A stretch of 59,080 bases of DNA from Candidatus Zixiibacteriota bacterium. Its GTDB lineage: Bacteria; Zixibacteria; MSB-5A5; RBG-16-43-9. Positions within the stretch are counted from its first letter, which is position 1, and every line of letters begins with the position of its first letter. The DNA is taken from NCBI GenBank assembly GCA_030692925.1, contig JAUYBY010000010.1:1-59080 (forward strand), written 5' to 3'. The notes under the pieces were generated by a model. It was not told the origin of the DNA, made no database searches, and saw nothing but the letters and a program-made list of their open reading frames with translations. Positions 1-51,285 of this stretch are shown here, piece by piece. A program made the translations under genes and the position numbers.

Positions 1-234
1 TGTAGCGGAAACCTTTAGGTTTCCATCTTTTAATTTTAAAAAAATGGAGGGCTGAAGTCTTCGCCAGGATCCTGTGGACAAGACCTTGAGGCCCTCCGCT
101 ACACAATCCCTTATTGCTTTTGAGAAGTGGAACGGTAGAACAGGCATTCTTGCCTGTTCTATTTGCGACCCTGTCCTACCCTACGGGGGCTTGCTCCGGA
201 TCCATCAATAGGAAAAGGGTCGCACTACATACTG
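1..234. repeat. Cluster of REP-like stem-loops
   Basis: No gene. It holds a GGAAACC/GGTTTCC hairpin (7-24), a long nested element (46-104), an AGAACAGGCA/TGCCTGTTCT hairpin (137-160) and a GCGACCC/GGGTCGC pair (165-223) whose arms are pushed apart by about 45 bases of unrelated sequence. All of these stems recur elsewhere in the window. Confidence 0.8.
46..104. repeat. Long nested stem-loop element, copy 1
   Basis: About 59 bases: outer stem GGAGGGC/GCCCTCC, inner stem AAGTCTT/AAGACCTT, and a loop containing the perfect palindrome CAGGATCCTG; it ends in the GCTACA tail shared by the short hairpins. Other copies lie at 8361-8440 and 34016-34073. Confidence 0.85.
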
Positions 235-10631: not shown

Positions 10632-11765
10632 CTATTTGATTAACTCCCTGAAAATAACCAGTCTCTGAATCTCTGAAGTTCCTTCTCCGATTTCGCAGAG
10701 TTTCACGTCACGCAGGTATCTTTCTACTGGATATCTCCTTGAGTATCCATATTCTCCGAAAATTTGAATTGCTTCGTAAGTAACGAATCTTCCGATCTCA
10801 GAAGCGAAAAGTTTTGCCATAGCAGATTCCTTCACGTATTTCTGCCCTCTATCTTCAAGAAAAGCAGCATGATAAATCAGATGTCTGGCTGCCTCAATCT
10901 GGGTTGCCATATCCGCCAGTTTGAACTGGATCGCCTGGGACTCAATTAGAGGTTTTTCAAACTGTATAGTCTCTTTGGCATATTTCAAAGCTTTCTCAAA
11001 AGCACCCTGAGCGATGCCTAAAGCCATTGCTCCGATACTTATCCTTCCGCCATCGAGGGTGACTAAAAATTGCTTGAACCCTTCACCTTCTTTGCCTAAG
11101 AGATTCTCCCTAGGAACTTTTAAATCCTCAAAATGCAAAGTGGCAGTATCTGACCCCCTTATCCCCATTTTGTTTTCCTTTTTGCCAACCGTGAACCCCT
11201 TCATCCCTTTTTCTAAAATGAAAGAACTGATTCCTTTGGTTCCTTTGGTTTTATCTGTTGCTGCAGTGATAACGAAGGTCCCGGCAACTGAGGCATTGGT
11301 GATAAAACATTTGGAGCCGTTTATTACGTAACTGTCTCCTTTCAACACCGCTGTGGTTTTTGTCCCCCCGGCATCTGAGCCTGCATCCGGCTCAGTCAAG
11401 CCAAAAGCACCTAATTTCTCACCCTTAGCCAGAGGAGGTATATATTTTTTCTTCTGCTCCTCACTTCCAAAAAGGTAAAGAGGACAGATAGCCAGTGAAT
11501 TGTGAGCAGCAATAGTGATGCCGGTGGAGCCGCAGACCCTTGAAAGCTCCTCCACGGCAATTGCATATCTTAAAGTATCGATGCCCGTGCCTCCGAATTC
11601 CGGAGGAACTACCATCCCTAAAAGACCCAGCTGGGCGACCTTTTTTATGTTCTCATAAGGGAACTGCGCCTTCTCATCTGCTTCCTGAGCTTTTGGCTCG
11701 ATCTCCTTTTCAGCGAACTCCCTTATGCTTTTTCGGAAATCTTCGTACTTTTTATCCAAATACAT
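10632..11765 (-). CDS. Acyl-CoA dehydrogenase (short-chain type)
   Basis: A 377-residue FAD-dependent dehydrogenase that forms the 2,3-double bond of acyl-CoA, passing electrons to ETF. Seen: the [18 protein letters not shown]-binding signature (about residues 117-131), [13 protein letters not shown], and [13 protein letters not shown] near the C-terminus, whose Glu is in the position of the catalytic base of butyryl/medium-chain enzymes. Isovaleryl-CoA dehydrogenases have Ala or Gly there, so a straight-chain or 2-branched substrate is more likely. The gene follows a second dehydrogenase nine bases upstream. Confidence 0.92.
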
Positions 11766-11773
11766 CCTGTTCT

Positions 11774-12913
11774 CTATTTCAAAAGATCTCTGGAGATGAC
11801 CATTCTCTGCGCCTCAGAGGTTCCTTCGTAGATCTCGGTCACCCTGGCATCCCGGAAATACCTTTCCACTGCATATTCCTTCATATAGCCATACCCGCCG
11901 TGAATCTGTACTGCTTCGTTTACCACATAATTTGCCGCCTCTGAGGCAAATAGCTTTGCCATCGAGGCTTCTTTTATACATCTGATATTATTTTGCTTGA
12001 GCCAGGCCGCATGATGCACTAAAAGGCGAGCAGCTTCAATCTGGGTAGCCATGCTGGCTAATTTGAACTGGATAGCCTGAAAATTACAGATCGGCTGACC
12101 GAACTGGACCCTCTCCTTTGAGTATTTCAAAGCTTCATCCATAGCGGATTGAGCTATTCCCACAGCTTGAGCTCCCACCCCTATTCTACCGGAATCAAGC
12201 AACTCTAAGGCTATCCGGAAATCTTCGTTTTCTTCTCCAATGAGGTTTTCCTTGGGTACGAGACAATCTTCAAAAGAGATTTCCCTGGTATCAGAACCCC
12301 TGATCCCCATCTTTTTCTCTTTTGTCCCAACCTTAAACCCTTTTAATCCTTTCTCTACTAAAATACAGGAAATACCTTTGGATTTTGCCTCTGGACTGGT
12401 CGAAACAAAAAGGACAAAAAGGTCTGCTATCCCGGCATTGGTTACGAAGGTTTTGGTCCCATTGACTAAATAGTTGTTCCCCTTCAAAACTGCATTGGTC
12501 TTAATGCTTCCAGCATCTGTTCCAGCCTGAGGCTCTGTTAAAGAATAAGCTCCAATGAATTCTCCCCGGGTCAATTTAGGCAGGTATTTTTTCTTCTGCT
12601 CTTCTGTTCCAAATTTAAAAATGGCGTCGCAGACTAAAGAGTTATGGACAGATAAGGAGATCTGCAAAGCAGCGCAAGCTCTGGCAAACTCCTCCATCAC
12701 CAGAATGTAGCTGATGAAATCCAGACCAGAGCCGCCATATTCCTCCGGCATCAGCATCCCCATATACCCTAATTCAGCCAACTCCTTATACAGATCTCTG
12801 GGGATCTCCTCTTTCTCATCGAACTCCTGGGCTTTGGGTGCTAATTTCTCAGAGGCAAATTCTCTGGCAGCCTCTTTTATCATCTTCTGGTCTTCGGTAA
12901 GTTCAAAATCCAT
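11774..12913 (-). CDS. Acyl-CoA dehydrogenase (short-chain type)
   Basis: A 379-residue acyl-CoA dehydrogenase, paralogous to its downstream neighbour. The start is the ATG at 12913 (MDFELTEDQ), preceded by AGGAGA; the open frame upstream to 13015 is repeat sequence. Seen: YSLTEPQAGTDAGS, FVTNAGIADLF, and IYEGTSEAQRMVISRD with the SCAD-type catalytic Glu. ETF genes are not in the window. The close spacing with 10632-11765 suggests one transcript. Exact chain preference cannot be read from sequence. Confidence 0.92.
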   Translation of the reverse strand: MDFELTEDQKMIKEAAREFASEKLAPKAQEFDEKEEIPRDLYKELAELGYMGMLMPEEYGGSGLDFISYILVMEEFARACAALQISLSVHNSLVCDAIFKFGTEEQKKKYLPKLTRGEFIGAYSLTEPQAGTDAGSIKTNAVLKGNNYLVNGTKTFVTNAGIADLFVLFVSTSPEAKSKGISCILVEKGLKGFKVGTKEKKMGIRGSDTREISFEDCLVPKENLIGEENEDFRIALELLDSGRIGVGAQAVGIAQSAMDEALKYSKERVQFGQPICNFQAIQFKLASMATQIEAARLLVHHAAWLKQNNIRCIKEASMAKLFASEAANYVVNEAVQIHGGYGYMKEYAVERYFRDARVTEIYEGTSEAQRMVISRDLLK

Positions 12914-12950
12914 GGGTTTCTCTCCTAGTTTAATAACCGGATTGATACGC

Positions 12951-13169
12951 GTAGGGGCGGAGTTTAGCTCCGCCCTACAAGATGGGTGGAGACAAGCTCC
13001 ACCCCTACGCGACATCTCTAATGGTTAATAACCTCCAAAATGAAATCTGATTTAAAAGATTGTATCATCTTCTGTAGCCTTTACAGAGGCGTTGATCGGC
13101 GGGCAAGGGTGCCCGCCCTACGAGATATGAAAAAGTCAACATTCGTAGGCGGGGCTACCAGCCCCGCTA
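12951..13169. repeat. Stem-loop repeat cluster
   Basis: Two back-to-back hairpins at 12951-13009 (GGGGCGGAG/CTCCGCCC and GGGTGGAG/CTCCACCC, with GTAGGGG at one end and CCCCTAC at the other), then GCGGGCA/TGCCCGC (around 13098-13117) and GGCGGGGCTACCAGCCCCGC (13150-13169). No gene. Confidence 0.8.
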
Positions 13170-27267: not shown

Positions 27268-28866
27268 TTAGATTATTACTTTTTGTTCATACTCTCCCCA
27301 GGAATCTTTTAATACCTGGCAGATTTCGCCGATCGTGGCATAAACCTCCACGCACTGAATAACAGGATACATCAGATTTTCGTTCGTCTCGATTTTGTTT
27401 CTTAATTCGTCCAGCGATTTCTTTACTTTAGCTTTATCTCTTTTCTCTTTTACCTCTTTTAATCTTTTAATCTGTTCCAATGTTCCCTTTTTACTTACCT
27501 TAAAAATCTTTTTTCTCTTTTTAGTCTCAGCCTCAGTCTCGAATCTGTTCACGCCTACGATTATTTTTTCCTCTGACTCTACCATCTTCTGATATTCATA
27601 AGCGCTTCTCTGAATCTCCTTCTGGTAATAGCCAGACTCAACCGCCCATAAAGCTCCTCCGTTCTGCTCGATGTAATCGATATATTTTTTTGCCCCATTT
27701 TCTAAACTATTGGTAAGTGATTCTATAAAATAAGCCCCGGCTAAGGGGTCAACTGTATCCGTGACCCCGCTTTCATAGGCAATGATCTGCTGAGTCCTCA
27801 GAGCTATTTCTGCTGCTTTCTCTGATGGAAGACTTAAAGCCTCATCCATAGAGTTAGTGTGCAGAGATTGAGTGCCTCCCAAAACTGAAGAAAGCGCCTG
27901 CAAGGTTACCCGGATGATATTGTTTTCTGCCTGCTGGGCAGTGAGGGTGCATCCTGCAGTCTGAGTGTGGAACCTGAATTTACAGGCATCCTCAGATGCA
28001 CCAAATTTCTCTTTCATGATCTTTGCCCAGAGCCTTCTTGCGGCTCTGAACTTGGCTATCTCCTCAAAAAAATTGCTGTGTGAGTTCAGGAAAAAAGAAA
28101 CCCTTCTTCCGAAATCATTAACGTCCAGACCTGAGTTTATCGCTTCTTGAACATAGGCTACCCCATTGGCTAAAGTAAAAGCAATCTCCTGAACTGCGGT
28201 TGCTCCAGCCTCTCTTATGTGATAACCACTAACACTTATCGGGTTAAACTTCGGTAGATTTTCCTTAGCATATTTGAAGATGTCAGTGGTCAGTCTCATC
28301 GAAGGGCGGGGCGGAAAGATATAAGTCCCTCGGGCAATATATTCTTTCAGTATATCATTTTGAATTGTACCGCAAAGGAGGTTTAAAGGGACGTTTTGCT
28401 TTCTTGCTAAAGCCACATACATCGCCAGAAGAATAGAAGCAGTGGCATTTATGGTCATCGAGGTGCTGACTTTGTCCAGAGGGATACCATTAAACAGTAT
28501 CTCCATATCTTTGAGCGTATTAATAGCAACCCCGGTTTTCCCAACTTCTCCAGAGGATAGGGGATGGTCAGAATCATATCCGATCTGGGTGGGCAGGTCA
28601 AAGGCAATCGACAGGCCGGTTTGACCATGCTCCAGAAGATATTTGAACCTTTTATTAGTCTCCTTAGCAGTGCCGAAACCAGCATACTGCCTCATGGTCC
28701 ACAAGCGGCCCCGGTACATATCCTTCTGCACCCCACGGGTGAAAGGATATTTGCCCGGATAACCCAGGTCCCTTGCGTAATCGAAATCTGCAAGGTCCTC
28801 TGGTGTATAAAGCTCATTAACAGGAATATTTGAACTGGTGAGAGATTTCGGTTTATCTTTTTCCAA
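27268..28866 (-). CDS. Methylmalonyl-CoA mutase large subunit
   Basis: A 532-residue catalytic alpha subunit of a B12-dependent mutase, without a fused cobalamin domain. Substrate-reading residues match true methylmalonyl-CoA mutase: Tyr61 in [11 protein letters not shown] and Arg179 in [14 protein letters not shown], 118 residues apart as in the Tyr89/Arg207 pair of the Propionibacterium enzyme. It converts (R)-methylmalonyl-CoA to succinyl-CoA. The start is a TTG. The epimerase gene is downstream and a split propionyl-CoA carboxylase is upstream. No dedicated B12 subunit is adjacent; the one at 35594 may be shared. Confidence 0.92.
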
Positions 28867-34137: not shown

Positions 34138-35265
34138 TTATCTCAAATAAGCGCTGGAGATAACCAACCTCTGCACCTCTGAAGTTCCTTCGTAGATCTC
34201 TGTGATCCTCTGATCCCGGTAAAGCTTTTCTATCTCGGAGAATTCACCGATGTAGCCATACCCGCCGTGAATCTGCATTGCCCGGTCCACGATGAAATTG
34301 GAAGCCTCAGAGGCATACAGCTTGGCTTGAGCAGCTTCCCTGGAGATTTTCTCTCCTTTATCATCCATCATCGCCGCCTTGTAAGTCAGCATGCGTGCCG
34401 CCTCTAAGCGTGTGCTCATGTCCGCGATCATCCACTGGATCGCCTGTAGTTTGGCAATCGGCGCTCCGAACTGTACTCTGGTCTTGGAGTATTTTATCGA
34501 TTCATCAAATGCCCTCTGGGCAATACCCAGAGCTTGAGCTGCCACGCCTATCCTGGCACCATCCAGAGTTACCAGGGCAATCCTGAAACCTTTTCCTATC
34601 TCTCCCAAAAGGTTTTCTTTTGGAATTTTTACGTTATTCAACTTCAAACGTGCAGTGGTCGATGCCCTCAGCCCCATCTTCCATTTTAGAACCTCTGAAG
34701 TAAGTCCGGGAGTTTTTCCCTCCACTAAGAAAGCTGAAACTTTATCCTCAGTTTTGGCAATGATCACAGTTATATCTGCCACGTTTCCGCTGGTGATGAA
34801 GATCTTCTCACCGTTGAGCACATAAGAATCCCCCTCCAGTTTGGCTGTAGTCTGCTGGTTGCCGGCATCAGAACCTGCATTCGGTTCGGTCAAAGCAAAG
34901 GCACCTACCATCTCACCAGAGCACATTTTGGGCAGATATTTTTTCTTCTGCTCCTCAGAGCCAAAAGCCTCTATCGGGTAACCTGCCAGGTTATTCACCG
35001 CCATAATTATGGCAGACGCCGCATCAAACCAGGCTATCTCCTCAATCAGGGTAGTATATTCAAGTCTGCTTTTGCCCAGACCGCCATATTGTTTATTGAC
35101 CGGAAAAGCCATAAATCCCTTTTCCGCCATCTTTTTGAAAAGCTCTCTGGGAAACTCTGGCGGTTTTCTATCCATCTCCATAGCCACCGGCGCGATATAT
35201 TTCTCGCCGAACTCCTTCGCCAGATCCCTAACCGCCTGCTGTTTCTCGTCTAAATTAAAAGTCAT
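34138..35265 (-). CDS. Acyl-CoA dehydrogenase next to the isobutyryl-CoA mutase genes
   Basis: A 375-residue acyl-CoA dehydrogenase: FALTEPNAGSDAGN, FITSGNVADITVI and IYEGTSEVQRLVISS with the SCAD-type catalytic Glu. A strong AGGAGG site precedes the ATG. It follows the B12 subunit and the isobutyryl-type mutase, so butyryl-CoA or isobutyryl-CoA is a reasonable substrate guess. It is as distant from the pair at 10632 and 11774 as they are from each other. Confidence 0.92.
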   Translation of the reverse strand: MTFNLDEKQQAVRDLAKEFGEKYIAPVAMEMDRKPPEFPRELFKKMAEKGFMAFPVNKQYGGLGKSRLEYTTLIEEIAWFDAASAIIMAVNNLAGYPIEAFGSEEQKKKYLPKMCSGEMVGAFALTEPNAGSDAGNQQTTAKLEGDSYVLNGEKIFITSGNVADITVIIAKTEDKVSAFLVEGKTPGLTSEVLKWKMGLRASTTARLKLNNVKIPKENLLGEIGKGFRIALVTLDGARIGVAAQALGIAQRAFDESIKYSKTRVQFGAPIAKLQAIQWMIADMSTRLEAARMLTYKAAMMDDKGEKISREAAQAKLYASEASNFIVDRAMQIHGGYGYIGEFSEIEKLYRDQRITEIYEGTSEVQRLVISSAYLR

Positions 35266-35593
35266 CCTACCTCCTGTATTTAGATGTTAATTTTTCAAAT
35301 CTTTTTTTCATTTGAACATCCACCCACGTTGTGGGCAACGTGGGGTTTACCGATTTTCCTCTTTTTTAACCTCGTAGGCGGGGCTCCCAGCCCCGCAGTG
35401 GCGGAGCAAGGTGCTCCGCCTACGAGCTTAGATTGAATGTTATTCTCTTATTATTTTCGTGGGCGAGGGAACCTCGCCCCTACAATTTTCGTTCGACATT
35501 CGTTATCCGTCATCTGTCATTTGTTCTTCCTTTTTCCGTCTTTCTTATTTCTTAATTCCGCTCACGAGCAACGAGAAACGTTCACGTTTTTTC
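35266..35593. repeat. Gene-free stretch with stem-loop repeats
   Basis: CCCACGTTGTGGGCAACGTGGG (35321-35342), GGCGGGGCTCCCAGCCCCGC (35376-35395), GGCGGAGCA/TGCTCCGCC (35400-35420), GGGCGAGG/CCTCGCCC (35461-35479) and two degenerate arrays (TTATCCGTCATCTGTCATT at 35502; CACGAGCAACGAGAAACG at 35561). No gene. Confidence 0.8.
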
Positions 35594-36140: not shown

Positions 36141-37808
36141 TTATATTAGGGGAGGTTCCACATATTCCCCAAAAACACTCTTCATTACCTCTACAATTTC
36201 TCCCTCAGTCGCATAACAACGGACGCATTCTAAGATTGCGGGCATAGTGTTATCAGTTCCCTGAACCACTTTCTTCAAATTCTCCAGACTTCTTTTTACC
36301 TTATCGTTATCCCTTTCAGTCTTGACTTTTTTGATTGCCTGGACCTGTTTTTTTTCTACCTCGGGATCTACCTTCAAAATAGGTATTTCTATTTTCTCAT
36401 CCTGGATCAAAAAATCATTAATCCCTACTACGATCCTATCTTTGCTCTCTATCTCCTTCTGGTAACGGTAAGCTGCTTCTGCTATCTCCCTCTGAAAGTA
36501 TCCTTCCTCAATGCCTTTCAGAACCCCTCCTCTTCTCTCTATCTCCGCAAAATATTTCTCTGCCTCTTCCTCCATCTTATTGGTCAGCGATTCAACGTAA
36601 TATGAGCCAGCCAGGGGATCAATCGTATTCGCCACCCCGGTCTCAAAAGCGATAAGCTGCTGCGTCCTCAGGGCTATCTGCACTGCTTTTTCAGACGGCA
36701 AAGCCCAGGACTCATCCATAGAGTTAGTGTGCAAACTCTGAGTCCCTCCTAAAACTGCAGCCAGTGCCTCAAAAGCCGTGCGCGCGATGTTATTCTCCGG
36801 CTGCTGGGCAGTTAAACTACACCCTGCAGTCTGGGTATGAAACCTCAAGAGCCAGGACTCTTCTTTTTTAGCTTTATATCTTTCTCTCATATGCCTTGCC
36901 CAGATCCTGCGCGCGGCCCGGTATTTGGCGATCTCCTCAAAGAAATCCAGATGTGAGTTAAAAAAAAAGGATAACCTCGGAGCGAAGTCATCGACATCCA
37001 AACCCGCCTTAATCCCTGCCTCTACGTAAGCAAACCCATCTGCCAGGGTAAAAGCCAGCTCCTGCACTGCGGTAGCTCCTGCTTCCCTGATGTGATATCC
37101 AGAAATAGAAATAGTATTCCATTTGGGAACGTGCCGAGAGGAAAAAGCCATTACATCAGTTATCAATCTCATATGAGGCAGAGGAGGGAAGATCCATTCC
37201 TTTTGAGCGATATATTCCTTCAAAATATCATTTTGAATTGTTCCTGTTAATTTTTCCGATGAAATCCCCTGCTTTTCTCCGACTGCAATGTACATCGCGA
37301 AAAGTATAGAAGCCGGAGCGTTGATGGTCATCGAGGTAGAGATTTTATCCAGACTGATTCCATCGAAGATTATTTCCATATCTTTCAAAGAGTCGACAGC
37401 TACCCCACATACCCCAACCTCACCCAAAGAACGAGGATGGTCTGAATCATATCCCATCAAAGTGGGCAGGTCAAAAGCAACTGAAAGACCGGTTTGCCCT
37501 CTTTGCAGGAGAAAATGGTACCTTTCGTTGGTCTGTCTGGGCGTCCCCATTCCAGAGAACTGGCGCATAGTCCATAATCTTCCCCGATACATATTCGTCC
37601 TGATCCCCCGGGTATAGGGAAACTCCCCGGGGAATGCGATGTCTTTGCTGAAATCAATATTCGCAATATCCGCTGGACTATAAAGAGGGTTGACCTCCTC
37701 ACCTGAAACGGTTATGCATCTTCGGTTGGTAGCTTTGCAGGTTTTATAAACCCCCTCCCATTTTCTTTTTTCCTCTTCAATTTTTTTAAGCTTATCTTTA
37801 TCAAACAT
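36141..37808 (-). CDS. icmA: Isobutyryl-CoA mutase-like large subunit
   Basis: A 555-residue B12-dependent mutase large subunit, homologous to the one at 27268 but with different substrate residues: Phe84 in TMRQFSGMGT and Gln202 in LKEYIAQKEWIFPP, 118 residues apart. In Streptomyces isobutyryl-CoA mutase the equivalents are Phe80/Gln198, against Tyr/Arg in methylmalonyl-CoA mutase. It should therefore interconvert isobutyryl-CoA and n-butyryl-CoA. Neighbours: a MeaB-type GTPase upstream, the B12 subunit and an acyl-CoA dehydrogenase downstream. Ethylmalonyl- or hydroxyisobutyryl-CoA mutases have other residues at the first position. Specificity is inferred, not shown. Confidence 0.85.
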   Translation of the reverse strand: MFDKDKLKKIEEEKRKWEGVYKTCKATNRRCITVSGEEVNPLYSPADIANIDFSKDIAFPGEFPYTRGIRTNMYRGRLWTMRQFSGMGTPRQTNERYHFLLQRGQTGLSVAFDLPTLMGYDSDHPRSLGEVGVCGVAVDSLKDMEIIFDGISLDKISTSMTINAPASILFAMYIAVGEKQGISSEKLTGTIQNDILKEYIAQKEWIFPPLPHMRLITDVMAFSSRHVPKWNTISISGYHIREAGATAVQELAFTLADGFAYVEAGIKAGLDVDDFAPRLSFFFNSHLDFFEEIAKYRAARRIWARHMRERYKAKKEESWLLRFHTQTAGCSLTAQQPENNIARTAFEALAAVLGGTQSLHTNSMDESWALPSEKAVQIALRTQQLIAFETGVANTIDPLAGSYYVESLTNKMEEEAEKYFAEIERRGGVLKGIEEGYFQREIAEAAYRYQKEIESKDRIVVGINDFLIQDEKIEIPILKVDPEVEKKQVQAIKKVKTERDNDKVKRSLENLKKVVQGTDNTMPAILECVRCYATEGEIVEVMKSVFGEYVEPPLI

Positions 37809-37830
37809 AAGACCTCACCTTCAGGCTAAT

Positions 37831-38766
37831 TTACAAATTCAAATTCTCCAGAATCTTCTCTCCGGCAGAATAAGGATCTTCCTGACCGGAATAGACCTTT
37901 TCTGCCAGTTGGTCCAGATTGGCATCGCTTAAGTTCTTTTCGAGCAGCTCTTTTAGTTTTAGCTCCATTATTTTTTTCAATTCCGATTTAATCTGTTCTT
38001 TACGATGTTTTTCCAGAAGATGGTTTTCGGTGATGTACTTTCTGTGCTCCTTAATTTTCTTTAACAAATCATCTATGCCTTTATTATTGACCGCTTCCGT
38101 AGAAACGATCGGGTAATTCCATTCCCCCTTTTTCCTCCGCACGTCCAGAATCATATCTAACTCTGAAACTATCCTGTTTGCTCCTTCCCTATCAGCTTTA
38201 TTCACTACGAAGATATCTGCTATTTCCATCAGCCCGGCCTTCATCGCCTGAATGCTATCCCCTGATTCCGGGACGAACACAACCAGCGTGGTATCGCAGG
38301 CATCAACTATGTCCAATTCTATCTGGCCCACGCCTACGGTTTCTATCAAAATAAAATCCTTACCAAAAGCATCCAAAAGCAAAGACACCTCCTTAGTGGC
38401 AAAAGCAAGTCCACCCAGGGAGCCCCGGGTTGCCATACTGCGAATGAAAATTCCTTTTTTAGTGGTCAAATCCTGCATCCTTATCCGGTCTCCTAAAAGA
38501 GCACCCCCGGTAAAGGGGCTGGACGGGTCGACCGCGATTATCCCCACTTCATTTCCGTTTTGAATCAGGTCACAGCTTAATTTGTCCACGAGGGTGCTCT
38601 TCCCAGCCCCTGGCGGACCGGTTATCCCTACCCGGTAAGCTTTCCCGGTTCTGGAGTATAGAGAGGATAAGATCTTGCGATAATCAGGGGCTTGATTTTC
38701 CACATAGGAGATAAGCCTGGAAAGTGCCACCTCGTCTTTTTGAAGGAATCTATCTAATAAAGACAT
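37831..38766 (-). CDS. meaB: MeaB/ArgK-type GTPase chaperone of the mutase
   Basis: A 311-residue G3E-family GTPase: Walker A GPPGAGKSTLVDKL (about 48-61), VDPSSPFTGGALLGDRIRM, IETVGVGQIELDIVD switch region, NKADREGA base recognition. These proteins load and protect the adenosylcobalamin cofactor of methylmalonyl- and isobutyryl-CoA mutases. It lies immediately upstream of icmA, with icmB next, so the three form an unfused equivalent of the IcmF fusion protein. It starts ten bases after recJ. Confidence 0.93.
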   Translation of the reverse strand: MSLLDRFLQKDEVALSRLISYVENQAPDYRKILSSLYSRTGKAYRVGITGPPGAGKSTLVDKLSCDLIQNGNEVGIIAVDPSSPFTGGALLGDRIRMQDLTTKKGIFIRSMATRGSLGGLAFATKEVSLLLDAFGKDFILIETVGVGQIELDIVDACDTTLVVFVPESGDSIQAMKAGLMEIADIFVVNKADREGANRIVSELDMILDVRRKKGEWNYPIVSTEAVNNKGIDDLLKKIKEHRKYITENHLLEKHRKEQIKSELKKIMELKLKELLEKNLSDANLDQLAEKVYSGQEDPYSAGEKILENLNL

Positions 38767-38776
38767 GTCTTTCTTT

Positions 38777-40480
38777 TTATCTCATCTGCAGGTCTTTAAG
38801 ACGCATCTGGATTTTGGAGTTTCCGTTCCAGACGTTGAGCTCCAGCACGTAAGCTAAATCTATTTTTGTGCCCCGCATTGCCAGAGGTTTGGCAAAATCT
38901 CCTAAATTAAACCCAATAGCATCCATAATTATCCCGTTTTTCTTCACTTTCAACCTCAGATGATTCTTTCCTACCACGTAGGCATCATCCGCTAATTCCA
39001 GACCTCTGGTCACGAAGACCGGTTTTAAATTGCCGGGGCCAAAAGGAGCAAAAAGCTCCAGGGCTGATATAAGTCCATCCTGTATCTCCTCTAATTCCAG
39101 CTCCGCATCCACAGTTAGCCTGGGAATTAAATCCTCATCTTTAATTCTCCTGGCTGAAACCAGTTTAAATTTCTCTTTGAAGGATTCGATCTCTTTAGAG
39201 GCAATAGAAAGACCGGCCGCATACTTGTGACCCCCGTATTTCAAAAGACAATCCTCGCATTCTTTTAGAGCCTCGAACAGGTGAAACCCTGGGATACTCC
39301 TGGCTGAACCCTTTCCTTCTTCACCATCTATGGAAATCATCACCGTTGGCCTGTAGAATCTTTCGGCAACTCTTGAGGCAACGATTCCTATAACCCCCTG
39401 ATGCCATCCAGCAGATGCTAATATAATCGCCTTGTCATTTTTCAGGTCAACCTCTTCCTGGATCAGCTCTAAAGCCTGTTCCAGGGTTCCCTCATCGATT
39501 TTTTTCCTCTTTCGATTCTCCTCATCCAAAACCCGCGAGATCTCCGAAGCTAATTTCTCATCTCTGGTGGTCAAGAGCTTGATTGCCCTTTCCGCATCTC
39601 CTAATCTTCCTACAGCATTTATCCGCGGTGCCAGGATGAACACAACCTGTCCTGTTCCGATCTCCCTTCCCATCAGCCCTGAGATGAAGATTAGAGATTT
39701 AAGCCCTGGTTTGGAGGTTTTAGCAACCTGTAAAAGCCCGTATCTGGTCAAAATCCTGTTCTCACCCAGGAGAGGGACAATGTCTGCGGCAGTTCCCAGG
39801 GCTACTAAGTCAAGATGGTCCTCTAACTCTTTTTCATCCTGGCCTAATTTTCTGTAAATAGCTTGAGCTAATTTAAAAGCCACCCCTACTCCGGAAAGTT
39901 CCTTTCCCTTATAGGTTTCTCCTTCCTGCTTGGGATTAATAATTGCCCACGCATCAGGCAATGTCTCAGCCGGTTCATGATGATCAGTAATGATACAATC
40001 TATTCCTTTCTTTTGAGCAAAATCAACCTCTTTTACTGCATTGATACCACAATCGACTGAGATAATAAGCTTTGCTCCCCTTCTTTCCGCCTCTAAAATC
40101 CCCTCCTCAGAAAGTCCATAACCTTCGACCAGTCGGTTAGGCAGATAATATGAGACCTGGGCTCCTAATTTGGTCAAAACCAGATACATAAGAGAAGCTG
40201 AGGTGATCCCATCCACATCGTAGTCTCCGAAAATCATTATCTTCTCTTTATCTGTGAGCGCTGATATAACCCTATCCACTCCCCTTTCCATATCCTTAAG
40301 CATGAAGGGGTCAGAAAGATCGCTCAGGCTGGGGTTTAAAAAGTTCTTAGCTTCTTCTGGTTCTGAATACCCCCGATTGATCAGAATTTTTCCTATTACT
40401 GGAGGCAGCCCTAATTCAGATGAGAGCTCTTTGCACTTGTTCTCATCTAATTTTTGGGGAAATTCCCATCTCAATTCCAT
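38777..40480 (-). CDS. recJ: Single-strand DNA exonuclease RecJ
   Basis: A 567-residue DHH-family 5'-3' exonuclease. Seen: DYDVDGITSASLMYL, SVDCGIN, the DHHEPAE signature, a DHHA1 domain with GGHKYAAGLSI (about 395-405), and a C-terminal OB-type domain. Used in recombination and mismatch repair. GAAAGGAAA precedes the ATG. The gene is followed after ten bases by meaB, an apparently incidental pairing. Confidence 0.93.
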   Translation of the reverse strand: MELRWEFPQKLDENKCKELSSELGLPPVIGKILINRGYSEPEEAKNFLNPSLSDLSDPFMLKDMERGVDRVISALTDKEKIMIFGDYDVDGITSASLMYLVLTKLGAQVSYYLPNRLVEGYGLSEEGILEAERRGAKLIISVDCGINAVKEVDFAQKKGIDCIITDHHEPAETLPDAWAIINPKQEGETYKGKELSGVGVAFKLAQAIYRKLGQDEKELEDHLDLVALGTAADIVPLLGENRILTRYGLLQVAKTSKPGLKSLIFISGLMGREIGTGQVVFILAPRINAVGRLGDAERAIKLLTTRDEKLASEISRVLDEENRKRKKIDEGTLEQALELIQEEVDLKNDKAIILASAGWHQGVIGIVASRVAERFYRPTVMISIDGEEGKGSARSIPGFHLFEALKECEDCLLKYGGHKYAAGLSIASKEIESFKEKFKLVSARRIKDEDLIPRLTVDAELELEEIQDGLISALELFAPFGPGNLKPVFVTRGLELADDAYVVGKNHLRLKVKKNGIIMDAIGFNLGDFAKPLAMRGTKIDLAYVLELNVWNGNSKIQMRLKDLQMR

Positions 40481-48367: not shown

Positions 48368-49015
48368 CTATTTATTCCCTTTTCCGAAATATTCGTCCAG
48401 GTCCTGGGCAATTATCTCTGCTCGATTCGTTCTCATGGGAGGGGTTCTGCCCAGAGATTCCCAGGGGCTTTTGACCCCTTCTGGCGACTCCTGTTTTAGA
48501 GCCACCTTGAGCTTGTCCACAAAAGAGGTGCTCTGCGGATGGAGAAAAACAGACTCCTGATAGATCAAAGGGATCGACCCCCGGATCAAAGGTCCCAGAG
48601 TAGATGTATCTATCTTGTTGGTCAAACTCAAAGGCAGAGGCGGAAAGATCAAAAGGATCAGAACAAATCCTAACACTATCCATCCCTGAAAGAAACCAAA
48701 AATTATGCCACCGAACTTGTCTATCTTCCCCAGCGGATTTAGAGAAGCCGCCTTATAGAACAAAAAGGCTAAGAGTTTAACTACCAGATAAACCAAGGCG
48801 AAAAGGAAGATCAGGCTAAAAAGGGAAACCACCACCGGCGAGACCTTCATATTGGACAAAACCCTTAAGGTTACTTTATCCACATAGTTGATGGACACAA
48901 TCACCCCAAGGAAAAGGCCGATGGTTCCCATAATCCCGCTGAAGATTCCACGCTTTGACCCGATGAAAATCGCCACCAAAAGCAAAGCGATTAAAACGTA
49001 ATCAATCCAGTTCAT
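48368..49015 (-). CDS. cvpA: CvpA family membrane protein
   Basis: A 215-residue protein with four membrane helices in the first 135 residues (starting NWIDYVLIALLLVAIFIGSKRGIFSG, typical of CvpA) and a polar C-terminal tail. CvpA proteins affect colicin V export and envelope stress; the mechanism is unclear. GAGGG precedes the ATG. Its start overlaps the end of the small Toprim-like gene by 14 bases. In related genomes cvpA next to mutS2 is common. Confidence 0.88.
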   Translation of the reverse strand: MNWIDYVLIALLLVAIFIGSKRGIFSGIMGTIGLFLGVIVSINYVDKVTLRVLSNMKVSPVVVSLFSLIFLFALVYLVVKLLAFLFYKAASLNPLGKIDKFGGIIFGFFQGWIVLGFVLILLIFPPLPLSLTNKIDTSTLGPLIRGSIPLIYQESVFLHPQSTSFVDKLKVALKQESPEGVKSPWESLGRTPPMRTNRAEIIAQDLDEYFGKGNK

Positions 49016-49489
49016 CTTTCCCTCCTTTCAATTCAAATTTTCCTTTTAAAAATCCTTCTAAAGTTTTTATCATTACACTTTTTCCCTTTATATCTTCTAT
49101 TAGTTTCACAATTCTTTCGGGTTTAATAGTCAAAAGCTCGTGTAATTCACTAGCATCATTAGATAAGCCATACTTGGAAATATCTATTTCTCTTTCTTTT
49201 GCAGCTTTTAAGACCCATTCTTCTATTCTCGGGCATAAAACAATCAAATATTTTTTATTTTTTCATCATGCAAGAGTCTAATTTGATTATCATTTGAAAG
49301 ATGTTTTAATGCTTTAAAATAACTTGGTGGGTTACTTCCGGGATCTTCATCTACTAATCCTACGGAATTTGTGTTATTCCTCAGTTTATTACAAACTTTT
49401 CCTTTGTCGCCAGCATGACGTATCTCTTGCCTAGGTAAACCGAGTGTTTTTACCAAGATTTTGTCAGGGTTACATTCCACATATATCAT
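49002..49489 (-). CDS. Small Toprim-like partner of the AAA ATPase, with a -1 frameshift
   Basis: Not assigned to a named family. Two frames join into one protein of about 161 residues: 49489 to about 49253, then the -1 frame down to 49002. The junction is the slippery heptamer A AAA AAT (49256-49250); shifting there gives KKYLIVLCPRIEEW, a continuous strand-like sequence, whereas the zero frame stops two codons later. Acidic motifs YVECNPD, GLVDEDPG and CPRIEEW resemble a reduced Toprim fold. Start overlaps the ATPase stop (ATGA). If no shift occurs, an 81-residue N-terminal piece is made, and a TTG (49247) could restart the second half. Confidence 0.6.
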
Positions 49490-50451
49490 TCTTTCTCCGT
49501 GAATTCGTCAAGGTTAAAAAATATGCTTTCATCGCGGTCAAGAGTTTCAGACATCTCTTTTTCAGTGAGTAGTCTAACCTTCGTCTGATAATCCTCAAAA
49601 TAGGTAATGAAAATTCCGATATCCTCCTTCGGGGCTTTTGCTAAAACTGGCAGAAGGAAATATGGATTATGGGTTGAGATAAAGTATTGATTAGTCTTAT
49701 CCAGAGCTATTCTCTCAGCCAAGAATTTAGTATAATAAGGAAAAGCATGAGCTTCAGGTTCTTCGAAAATGATGATAGAATCTTTGTTTGTCTCTATCGC
49801 TGCAAGGTGAAAAATAATTCTCAGTAAGGTATCAGAAACCAGAGATAAAGGAAGAGAAATTATTACATCTTCTTTCTCTTTTTGTATTGCTATTTCCTGC
49901 TCCTGAAGTTTTAAGACAATCTTAAGACCATACTCACTAAATATATCAGCCACTAATTTTCTCAAAGCTCTATTAGTTTGAATGGCAAATAAAAGATTTT
50001 CCCCTCTTGGCGGAAGAAGGAAACTATATTCCTGTCTAGTAAATTTATCTCCTAAGGCAAATCTATAAAATTTGAACGGCGAATTTCCTGAGCCTCCTGA
50101 AGTACCTCCAAGATTGTAACCATAATTAAAATCAAAATGGAAAATCTTTTTCTCTTTATCACCCCCGCTTCCAATAAACATCTGATCTGAAAACTTTATT
50201 TCATAATAATAATCATCTGCGGTAATCATTATTTTTTCACTTAACTCCAGGTCATTAAAAAGGTTTGCATAGTTATTTCCAAATCTGACCAAGTCTCCGA
50301 TCTTTCCATACATATAAGAAAAAAACCCAATACTTTCTAGGATATTAGATTTCCCTGCATTTGGCTTACCAATAAAGACATTTATTTTTTTACAGTCTAA
50401 CTCGAGATTTTTTATCGATTTAAAGTTTTGAATGTTCAAATTTTTTATCAT
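49486..50451 (-). CDS. AAA15/OLD-like ATPase
   Basis: A 321-residue ABC/SMC-type ATPase without coiled-coil arm: start IKNLNIQNFKSIKNLELDCKK, Walker A GKPNAGKSNILES (about 28-40), Walker B IIIFEEPEAHAFP (about 231-243), and FISTHNPYFLLP switch His. Such ATPases pair with nucleases in OLD, Abi and retron-type defence systems, and with Toprim partners in particular. Strong AGGAGG site; own promoter at 50513-50540; A+T-rich relative to neighbours. The Toprim-like small gene follows with a 4-base overlap. Defence function is inference. Confidence 0.8.
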   Translation of the reverse strand: MIKNLNIQNFKSIKNLELDCKKINVFIGKPNAGKSNILESIGFFSYMYGKIGDLVRFGNNYANLFNDLELSEKIMITADDYYYEIKFSDQMFIGSGGDKEKKIFHFDFNYGYNLGGTSGGSGNSPFKFYRFALGDKFTRQEYSFLLPPRGENLLFAIQTNRALRKLVADIFSEYGLKIVLKLQEQEIAIQKEKEDVIISLPLSLVSDTLLRIIFHLAAIETNKDSIIIFEEPEAHAFPYYTKFLAERIALDKTNQYFISTHNPYFLLPVLAKAPKEDIGIFITYFEDYQTKVRLLTEKEMSETLDRDESIFFNLDEFTEKE

Positions 50452-50540: not shown

Positions 50541-50706
50541 GTTATTTTTTTAGTATTTATAAGAAAGATTAGGTCAAGATTTTGTATGAGAACTTTGAAA
50601 AATCTGCACTGCGGGGCTGGGAGCCCCGCCTACGAGAGCTTAATATATAAAAAACAGGCATGGATGCCTGTTTTACCCTCTCTAATTGGAAACCTAAAGG
50701 TTTCCG
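50541..50706. repeat. Stem-loops
   Basis: GCGGGGCTGGGAGCCCCGC (50612-50630), AAAACAGGCATGGATGCCTGTTTT (50651-50674) and GGAAACCTAAAGGTTTCC (50687-50704), the last ending at the stop of the next gene. Confidence 0.75.
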
Positions 50707-51285
50707 CTACAAAAGGAGCAGAATCTGCATAACCAGACCTGATAAAATAGGCACGCTGAGATTATCATCTATCGGAATACTCAGGGCTTCGACTGCAGTT
50801 GCGACCAATGCCCCGATGGCTCCAATCCAGAAAGGTAAGCCCGGAAGCACCAGAGCAACCAGAAGACAGATGGATAAAAAAGCCAGACTTCCTTCTAAGC
50901 TTTTTTTCTCTATTTTGGTCCTGCCATAAACCCTCCCCACCAGAGCGGCTGCAATATCTCCAAGGATGACATAAACAATAGCCGCTATGGCAACTTTTTT
51001 GTCAAAGAAAAGTATAGATAAAGCAGAAGCGGAAAGTATGTGACTTGAGCCGGTCAGGGAGTAGCTTTCATGTTCTCTTAAAATGGGACCTAAAAACCAG
51101 TTAAAAAAATTGGCTAAAGGAAGTTTCCGGAGCCTGATTATGTCGACCAGGATCGAACCAAGGGCGAAAGGGACAAGAATTAAAAGAGCTATCTTCTTGG
51201 GAAGGAGATAATATCCTATGGGAATAGTCAGGGCGAATAGATGCATACCCTTCCTTTTGAACTCGTTATAAAGAGATATCTCCAA
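50707..51285 (-). CDS. Dolichol/phytol kinase-like membrane protein
   Basis: A 192-residue polytopic membrane protein of the CTP-dependent polyprenol/diacylglycerol kinase group (SEC59/VTE5-like). Seen: FKRKGMHLFALTIPIGYYLL start, a conserved GSSHILSASALSILFFDKKVAI and GDIAAALVGRVYGRTKIEKKSLEGS, the nucleotide-binding block of the family, and six or so helices. It could phosphorylate a polyprenol or another lipid alcohol. The start seems to be a TTG at 51285. Confidence 0.75.
   Translation of the reverse strand: MEISLYNEFKRKGMHLFALTIPIGYYLLPKKIALLILVPFALGSILVDIIRLRKLPLANFFNWFLGPILREHESYSLTGSSHILSASALSILFFDKKVAIAAIVYVILGDIAAALVGRVYGRTKIEKKSLEGSLAFLSICLLVALVLPGLPFWIGAIGALVATAVEALSIPIDDNLSVPILSGLVMQILLLL

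Follow-up and report, generated by a model that had tools for sequence, protein, structure and literature searches.

A compact two-gene ATPase–Toprim-like pair with a frameshifted and probably inactivated partner copy in a member of the Zixibacteria

Known ATPase–Toprim systems and the place of the pair among them

Communication between an ATPase and a Toprim domain is a feature of the OLD proteins (PMC12796447). In PARIS, which constitutes OLD class 4 and is restricted to bacteria (PMC12796447), the AriA ATPase senses a phage protein and releases AriB, a Toprim nuclease, and tRNAs are cut (PMC12409363). OLD classes 1–3 and 5, represented by P2 Old, GajA, the retron-Eco8 effector and Cran1, likewise combine an ABC ATPase with a Toprim part, and pairs of an AAA ATPase with a DUF4276 protein distribute an ATPase and a small Toprim-like partner over two genes.

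A gene pair of related design is present in the window analysed here, a stretch of 59,080 nucleotides from a Candidatus Zixiibacteriota bacterium (contig JAUYBY010000010.1). Its first gene (49486–50451, minus strand) is intact and encodes a 321-aa AAA/ABC ATPase of the Rad50/SMC-head type with a complete set of motifs, namely Walker A (GKPNAGKSN), Walker B (IIIFEEPEAHAFP) and STHNPYF. It matches the Pfam families AAA_15 (1.2e-17) and AAA_21 (1.4e-11) and shares 54–63% identity with six relatives. A Foldseek search with its structure model, which is of moderate quality (pLDDT 70.7), retrieved SMC/Rad50 heads as well as PtuA, a defence ATPase, with E-values of about 1e-11. The AriA HMM gave a weak match (1.8e-16) that mostly covers the ATPase motifs. 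The second gene encodes a Toprim-like partner, whose reading frame is broken in the window.

With PARIS the pair shares the adjacent arrangement of ATPase and Toprim genes, which holds for all 27 loci at which we found it, and AriA belongs to the same ABC/AAA_15–AAA_21 group as the ATPase described here. However, the partner comprises only about 150 aa and was not matched at E≤1 by any of the AriB/DUF4435 models of Pfam and PADLOC, the ATPase has only about 320 aa, and the pair occurs in archaea as well as in bacteria. Like OLD classes 1–3 and 5 it combines an ABC ATPase with a Toprim part, and the partner profile aligns in register with OLD-like TOPRIM (E, GGK, DxD), but here the two are separate proteins, the Toprim part is much smaller, and no helicase or reverse transcriptase adjoins the pair in the window. 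The DUF4276 pairs resemble it in their two-gene organization and in a similar E-x-W motif that follows the core, whereas DUF4276 (about 200 aa) and its ATPase (about 400–440 aa) are both larger. Membership in DUF4276, raised by this motif, was rejected, as PF14103 found no match in the partner or elsewhere in its genome; a weaker in-register profile match (score 20.0 versus 17.1 for the best shuffle) leaves the two families as possible kin.

Judged by sequence, the pair is thus of a split OLD-like ATPase–Toprim kind and by membership neither PARIS nor a DUF4276 pair. Since the partner has no family match in Pfam, NCBIfam, PADLOC or PHROGs, we regard the pair as an uncatalogued compact split-OLD/PARIS-like module of sporadic occurrence in bacteria, archaea and the pleolipovirus GahPV1; a literature search for a split-OLD partner of about 150 aa found no description of it. 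That it forms a separate compact class, with a minimal Toprim effector of about 150 aa whose chemistry or target differs from those of PARIS or Gabija, is a tentative proposal to which we give slightly less than an even chance. If true, a very small two-gene ATPase–Toprim system, one missed by current defence-gene libraries, would extend from bacteria through Asgard and other archaea to a pleolipovirus. It is this ATPase–partner family, rather than the frame break in the window, that makes the locus interesting.

Relatives of the pair and the Toprim-like partner

The congeneric genome G001 carries the pair at the same site between the same neighbours. A scan of 84,980 species yielded five more intact pairs, in Dadabacteria, Dehalococcoidia, Spirochaetota, Aenigmatarchaeota and Freyarchaeota. 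Protein searches added six genomes of the same class as the Dehalococcoidia genome, thirteen of the same phylum as the Freyarchaeota genome, and GahPV1, a pleolipovirus and archaeal provirus of Geoglobus, where the two proteins (gp15 and gp16) are annotated as ‘AAA family ATPase’ and ‘hypothetical protein’. Together with the window this amounts to 27 loci, all with the gene order ATPase, then partner. Three different profiles searched against IMG/VR retrieved no relatives, nor did a search of a plasmid collection. The distances among the ATPases and among the partners co-vary (Mantel r 0.92; reached in none of 2000 permutations), which would be expected if both proteins belong to a single machine. 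In GahPV1 the intact pair (locus L028, 4665–6819) has winged-helix regulators on both sides, which suggests a regulated cargo cassette.

Nine residues are invariant across 25 partners (E5, C6, D9, H25, D47, D49, E90, W92 and H117), and the family signature can be written as E-C-x-x-D / H-x-x-x-K / DxD / P-x-L-E-x-W / H. The hallmarks of a Toprim fold, a Glu after strand 1 and a DxD after strand 3, are present as E5 and as D47 and D49. Accordingly placed are these residues in an AF2 model of the partner from one relative (L006; pLDDT 91.7), in which strands and helices alternate, E5 directly follows strand 1 and D47-x-D49 lies at the end of strand 3. Moreover, hhalign aligned the partner profile in register with OLD-like TOPRIM (P=4.6e-4), pairing VEC..D with VEG..D, H-x-x-x-K with GGK, and DED with DxD; the score of 29.9 was not equalled by any of 60 shuffles (maximum 16.6), and the profile of the ATPase, used as an unrelated control, gave P 0.29. 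Foldseek with the confident partner model found nothing significant in the PDB or BFVD (best PDB E-value 0.18), and a sequence search of the PDB with the partner profile returned one chance match only. Motif, profile and predicted topology support the partner as Toprim-like. The initial annotation, which had described an ATPase with an unusually small Toprim-like partner in a two-gene arrangement of OLD/Abi-like flavour, is borne out in these respects, including the size: the joined chain of the window has 162 aa, at the long end of a family that ranges from 149 to 162 aa.

We propose that the SMC/Rad50-head-type ATPase, translationally coupled to its Toprim-type partner of about 150 aa, would form an OLD-nuclease-like machine spread over two genes. 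The ATPase would act as a sensor, or would keep hold of the small nuclease or license it, and the Toprim protein would be a metal-dependent nuclease effector; by comparison with PARIS, its most likely targets would be viruses or other mobile DNA. Both the nuclease activity and the role in defence are drawn from analogy with these systems.

The frame break in the partner gene

The stop codon of the ATPase gene and the start codon of the partner gene share an ATGA overlap, and overlaps of 1–4 nt occur in most homologues too. The N-terminal part of the partner (49244–49489, minus strand, frame 0) is an ORF of 81 aa that holds E5, C6, D9, H25, K29, D47 and D49. Its C-terminal part lies in frame −1 (49002–49262, minus strand), which is open from 49262 and was called as an ORF of 81 aa at 49002–49247; homology to the relatives begins at YLIVLCP (49250) and runs to 49002, and P87, E90, W92 and H117 are found here. 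The only stretch open in both frames is a 16-nt overlap, AAAAATAAAAAATATT (49247–49262, minus strand), within which the frame change must fall. Compared with in-frame relatives this stretch is out of frame by a net one base.

As the initial annotation had suggested, the two frames together encode one protein. In G001 the same partner is encoded at the same site as a single open frame of 153 aa, to which the joined chain is 51% identical over its whole length, and the pair recurs in 26 relatives; the joined chain is therefore a genuine protein. Its final approximately 10 residues (ELKGGKDELD) are encoded across the ribosome-binding site of the downstream cvpA gene. The 3′ end of the partner frame (49002–49050, minus strand) differs here from G001, passing this ribosome-binding site and running 14 nt into cvpA.

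In dnaX and in IS3-type elements, −1 frameshifting takes place at an in-phase X XXY YYZ heptamer. Such a heptamer, A AAA AAT at 49256–49250, was correctly located and phased in the initial annotation; it is in the phase of frame 0 and lies inside the 16-nt overlap. The annotation raised the possibility of a programmed slip that would yield a truncated and a full-length form, a reading (with slippage of RNA polymerase as a variant) that we consider very improbable despite the fitting position. Conservation of the site is the criterion by which a programmed shift is told apart from a mutation or an error (PMC3711429), and none of the other 26 loci is broken at this position; G001 lacks the heptamer altogether. 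Neither an SD-like sequence in the 30 nt before the heptamer nor an enclosed hairpin beginning 3–10 nt after it was found, and folding of the downstream RNA is not stronger than that of its shuffles (z +0.55). The site thus differs from those of dnaX and IS3-type genes in conservation and stimulators, and also in ending on AAT instead of AAG or AAA. Heptamers that end on AAY, the class to which A AAA AAT belongs, shift poorly in E. coli, where even the best motifs reach only about 0.3% without stimulators (PMC4066793). Transcriptional slippage has been reported for longer runs (n>7) than the A6 runs present here.

Two further observations fit a slip as well as other histories. Tandem slippage would produce KIKN-YLIVLCP and not the KKYLIVLCP that the initial annotation had given at the junction of an otherwise real chain, because the Asn tRNA in the A site has already read AAT; this product regains the Asn that precedes Tyr-Leu in most relatives, which a plain indel history explains equally well. 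The part after the break also retains a coding look, with pN 0.24, pS 0.63 and an excess of third-position changes against G001. At the long distance to G001, this pattern only says that the break is recent or tolerated, and nothing more; a selection analysis could not discriminate an old from a new break, as synonymous sites are saturated. The heptamer itself is common in the window, with 61 copies of AAAAAAT versus about 45 expected. Intact neighbouring genes contain 16 in-phase A-type heptamers in 6,578 codons, about 1 per 400, which corresponds to a chance of roughly 1% in a random 5-codon stretch, and two of the 16, both A AAA AAT, lie within the ATPase gene itself. The 16-nt overlap is moreover A-rich, and such runs are indel hot spots too. 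As the break is private to the window, stimulators were not found and A-type heptamers are not rare nearby, a slip could in principle occur but has no support as a programmed event, and the frame break itself is ordinary. Phase variation was considered as well; the tract consists of two A6 runs, and hypermutable tracts are usually longer.

A split partner that is still functional, made by reinitiation at TTG 49247 with subsequent assembly of the two fragments, seems hardly credible to us. The TTG overlaps the first stop codon (TTGA), and both halves have kept their conserved residues. However, the TTG is not preceded by an SD-like sequence, the break cuts the last core strand off from the remainder of the predicted fold, and none of the relatives is split in this way.

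More weight is due to an error of assembly or sequencing at the A-rich stretch of this metagenome assembly, in which case the real partner would be intact and the module would work; we consider this unlikely but not negligible. Indels in short runs are a common class of error, a singleton frameshift validated by BLAST is more often expected to be an error than a mutation according to the GeneTack survey (PMC3711429), and the purifying pattern persists past the break. On the other hand, no other compared orthologous gene is broken along about 20 kb of the contig, the second small irregularity at the 3′ end of the partner, relative to G001 and reaching into the cvpA ribosome-binding site, looks more like decay, and breaks recur elsewhere in the family. 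Lesions affect six of the 27 loci including the window; none of the five others lies at the break site of the window, two being in the ATPase (G219 and G561), one at the junction of ATPase and partner (G519) and two in the partner (G243 and G531). Since the genomes were, for the most part, probably assembled from metagenomes, some of these lesions may be errors. Repeated inactivation at this rate is what would be expected if the module is toxic and costly and useful only under certain conditions.

On balance we favour, with moderate confidence, a genuine inactivation over an assembly artefact, and infer a real mutation at the break. Owing to the net one-base difference in the 16-nt A/T-rich stretch, ribosomes would end after 81 residues. 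The product would keep the E/DxD half and lose the last core strand, P-x-L-E-x-W and H117; with this strand and the motifs of E90, W92 and H117 missing from the truncated partner, the copy in the window is probably inactive. The account as a whole, an accessory ATPase–Toprim pair whose partner frame is broken and which is probably dead here, strikes us as reasonably probable.

Genomic surroundings of the pair

Downstream of the pair lies a gene for a membrane protein resembling CvpA and the MarP N-terminus (48368–49015, minus strand), which is also present in G001, G002 and G003. Upstream is a gene whose product has the appearance of a dolichol kinase/cytidylyltransferase-like membrane protein (50707–51285, minus strand), and this flank is conserved in G001 and G002. 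The nearest relative is G002, with a CvpA 98% identical to that of the window. Here the flanks are the same but the pair is missing; about 300 nt lie between them, including a short stretch of N. A hidden insert of 1.4 kb is unlikely, because another N run nearby on that G002 contig has nearly its true length. The presence of both flanks without the pair in G002 marks the pair as accessory, judging from this comparison of genomes. In the comparison of the window with G001, identity is 93–95% for the flanking proteins and 51–62% for those of the pair, so that divergence or exchange is much more rapid in the pair than in the genes around it. Apart from the partner gene, all orthologues compared with G001 and G002 along about 20 kb have unbroken frames in the window. 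Among the loci inspected, only two have the pair beside DNA methyltransferases.

Further along the window, a gene for a 316-aa protein (37834–38781, minus strand) is intact here and in G002, and G001 has frames of 231 and 106 aa in its place. Two proteins encoded at 10635–13024 (minus strand) share 47–49% identity with the copies that the congeners have of the protein at 34141–35286 (minus strand), which indicates a paralogous family in the window; the genes at 27271–28866 and 36144–37814 are likewise paralogous, at about 58%. A palindromic repeat, GGCGGGGCTCCCAGCCCCGC, is dispersed through the genome with 28 copies at up to 2 mismatches, versus none for the reversed control. Its copies in the window lie at 13148, 35377, 41170 and, closely 5′ of the ATPase gene, 50611–50630 (minus strand). 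A second palindrome, GCGGAAACCTTTAGGTTTCC, occurs exactly at 50688–50707 (minus strand) and at 5–24 (plus strand), with 0.01 occurrences expected in the window.
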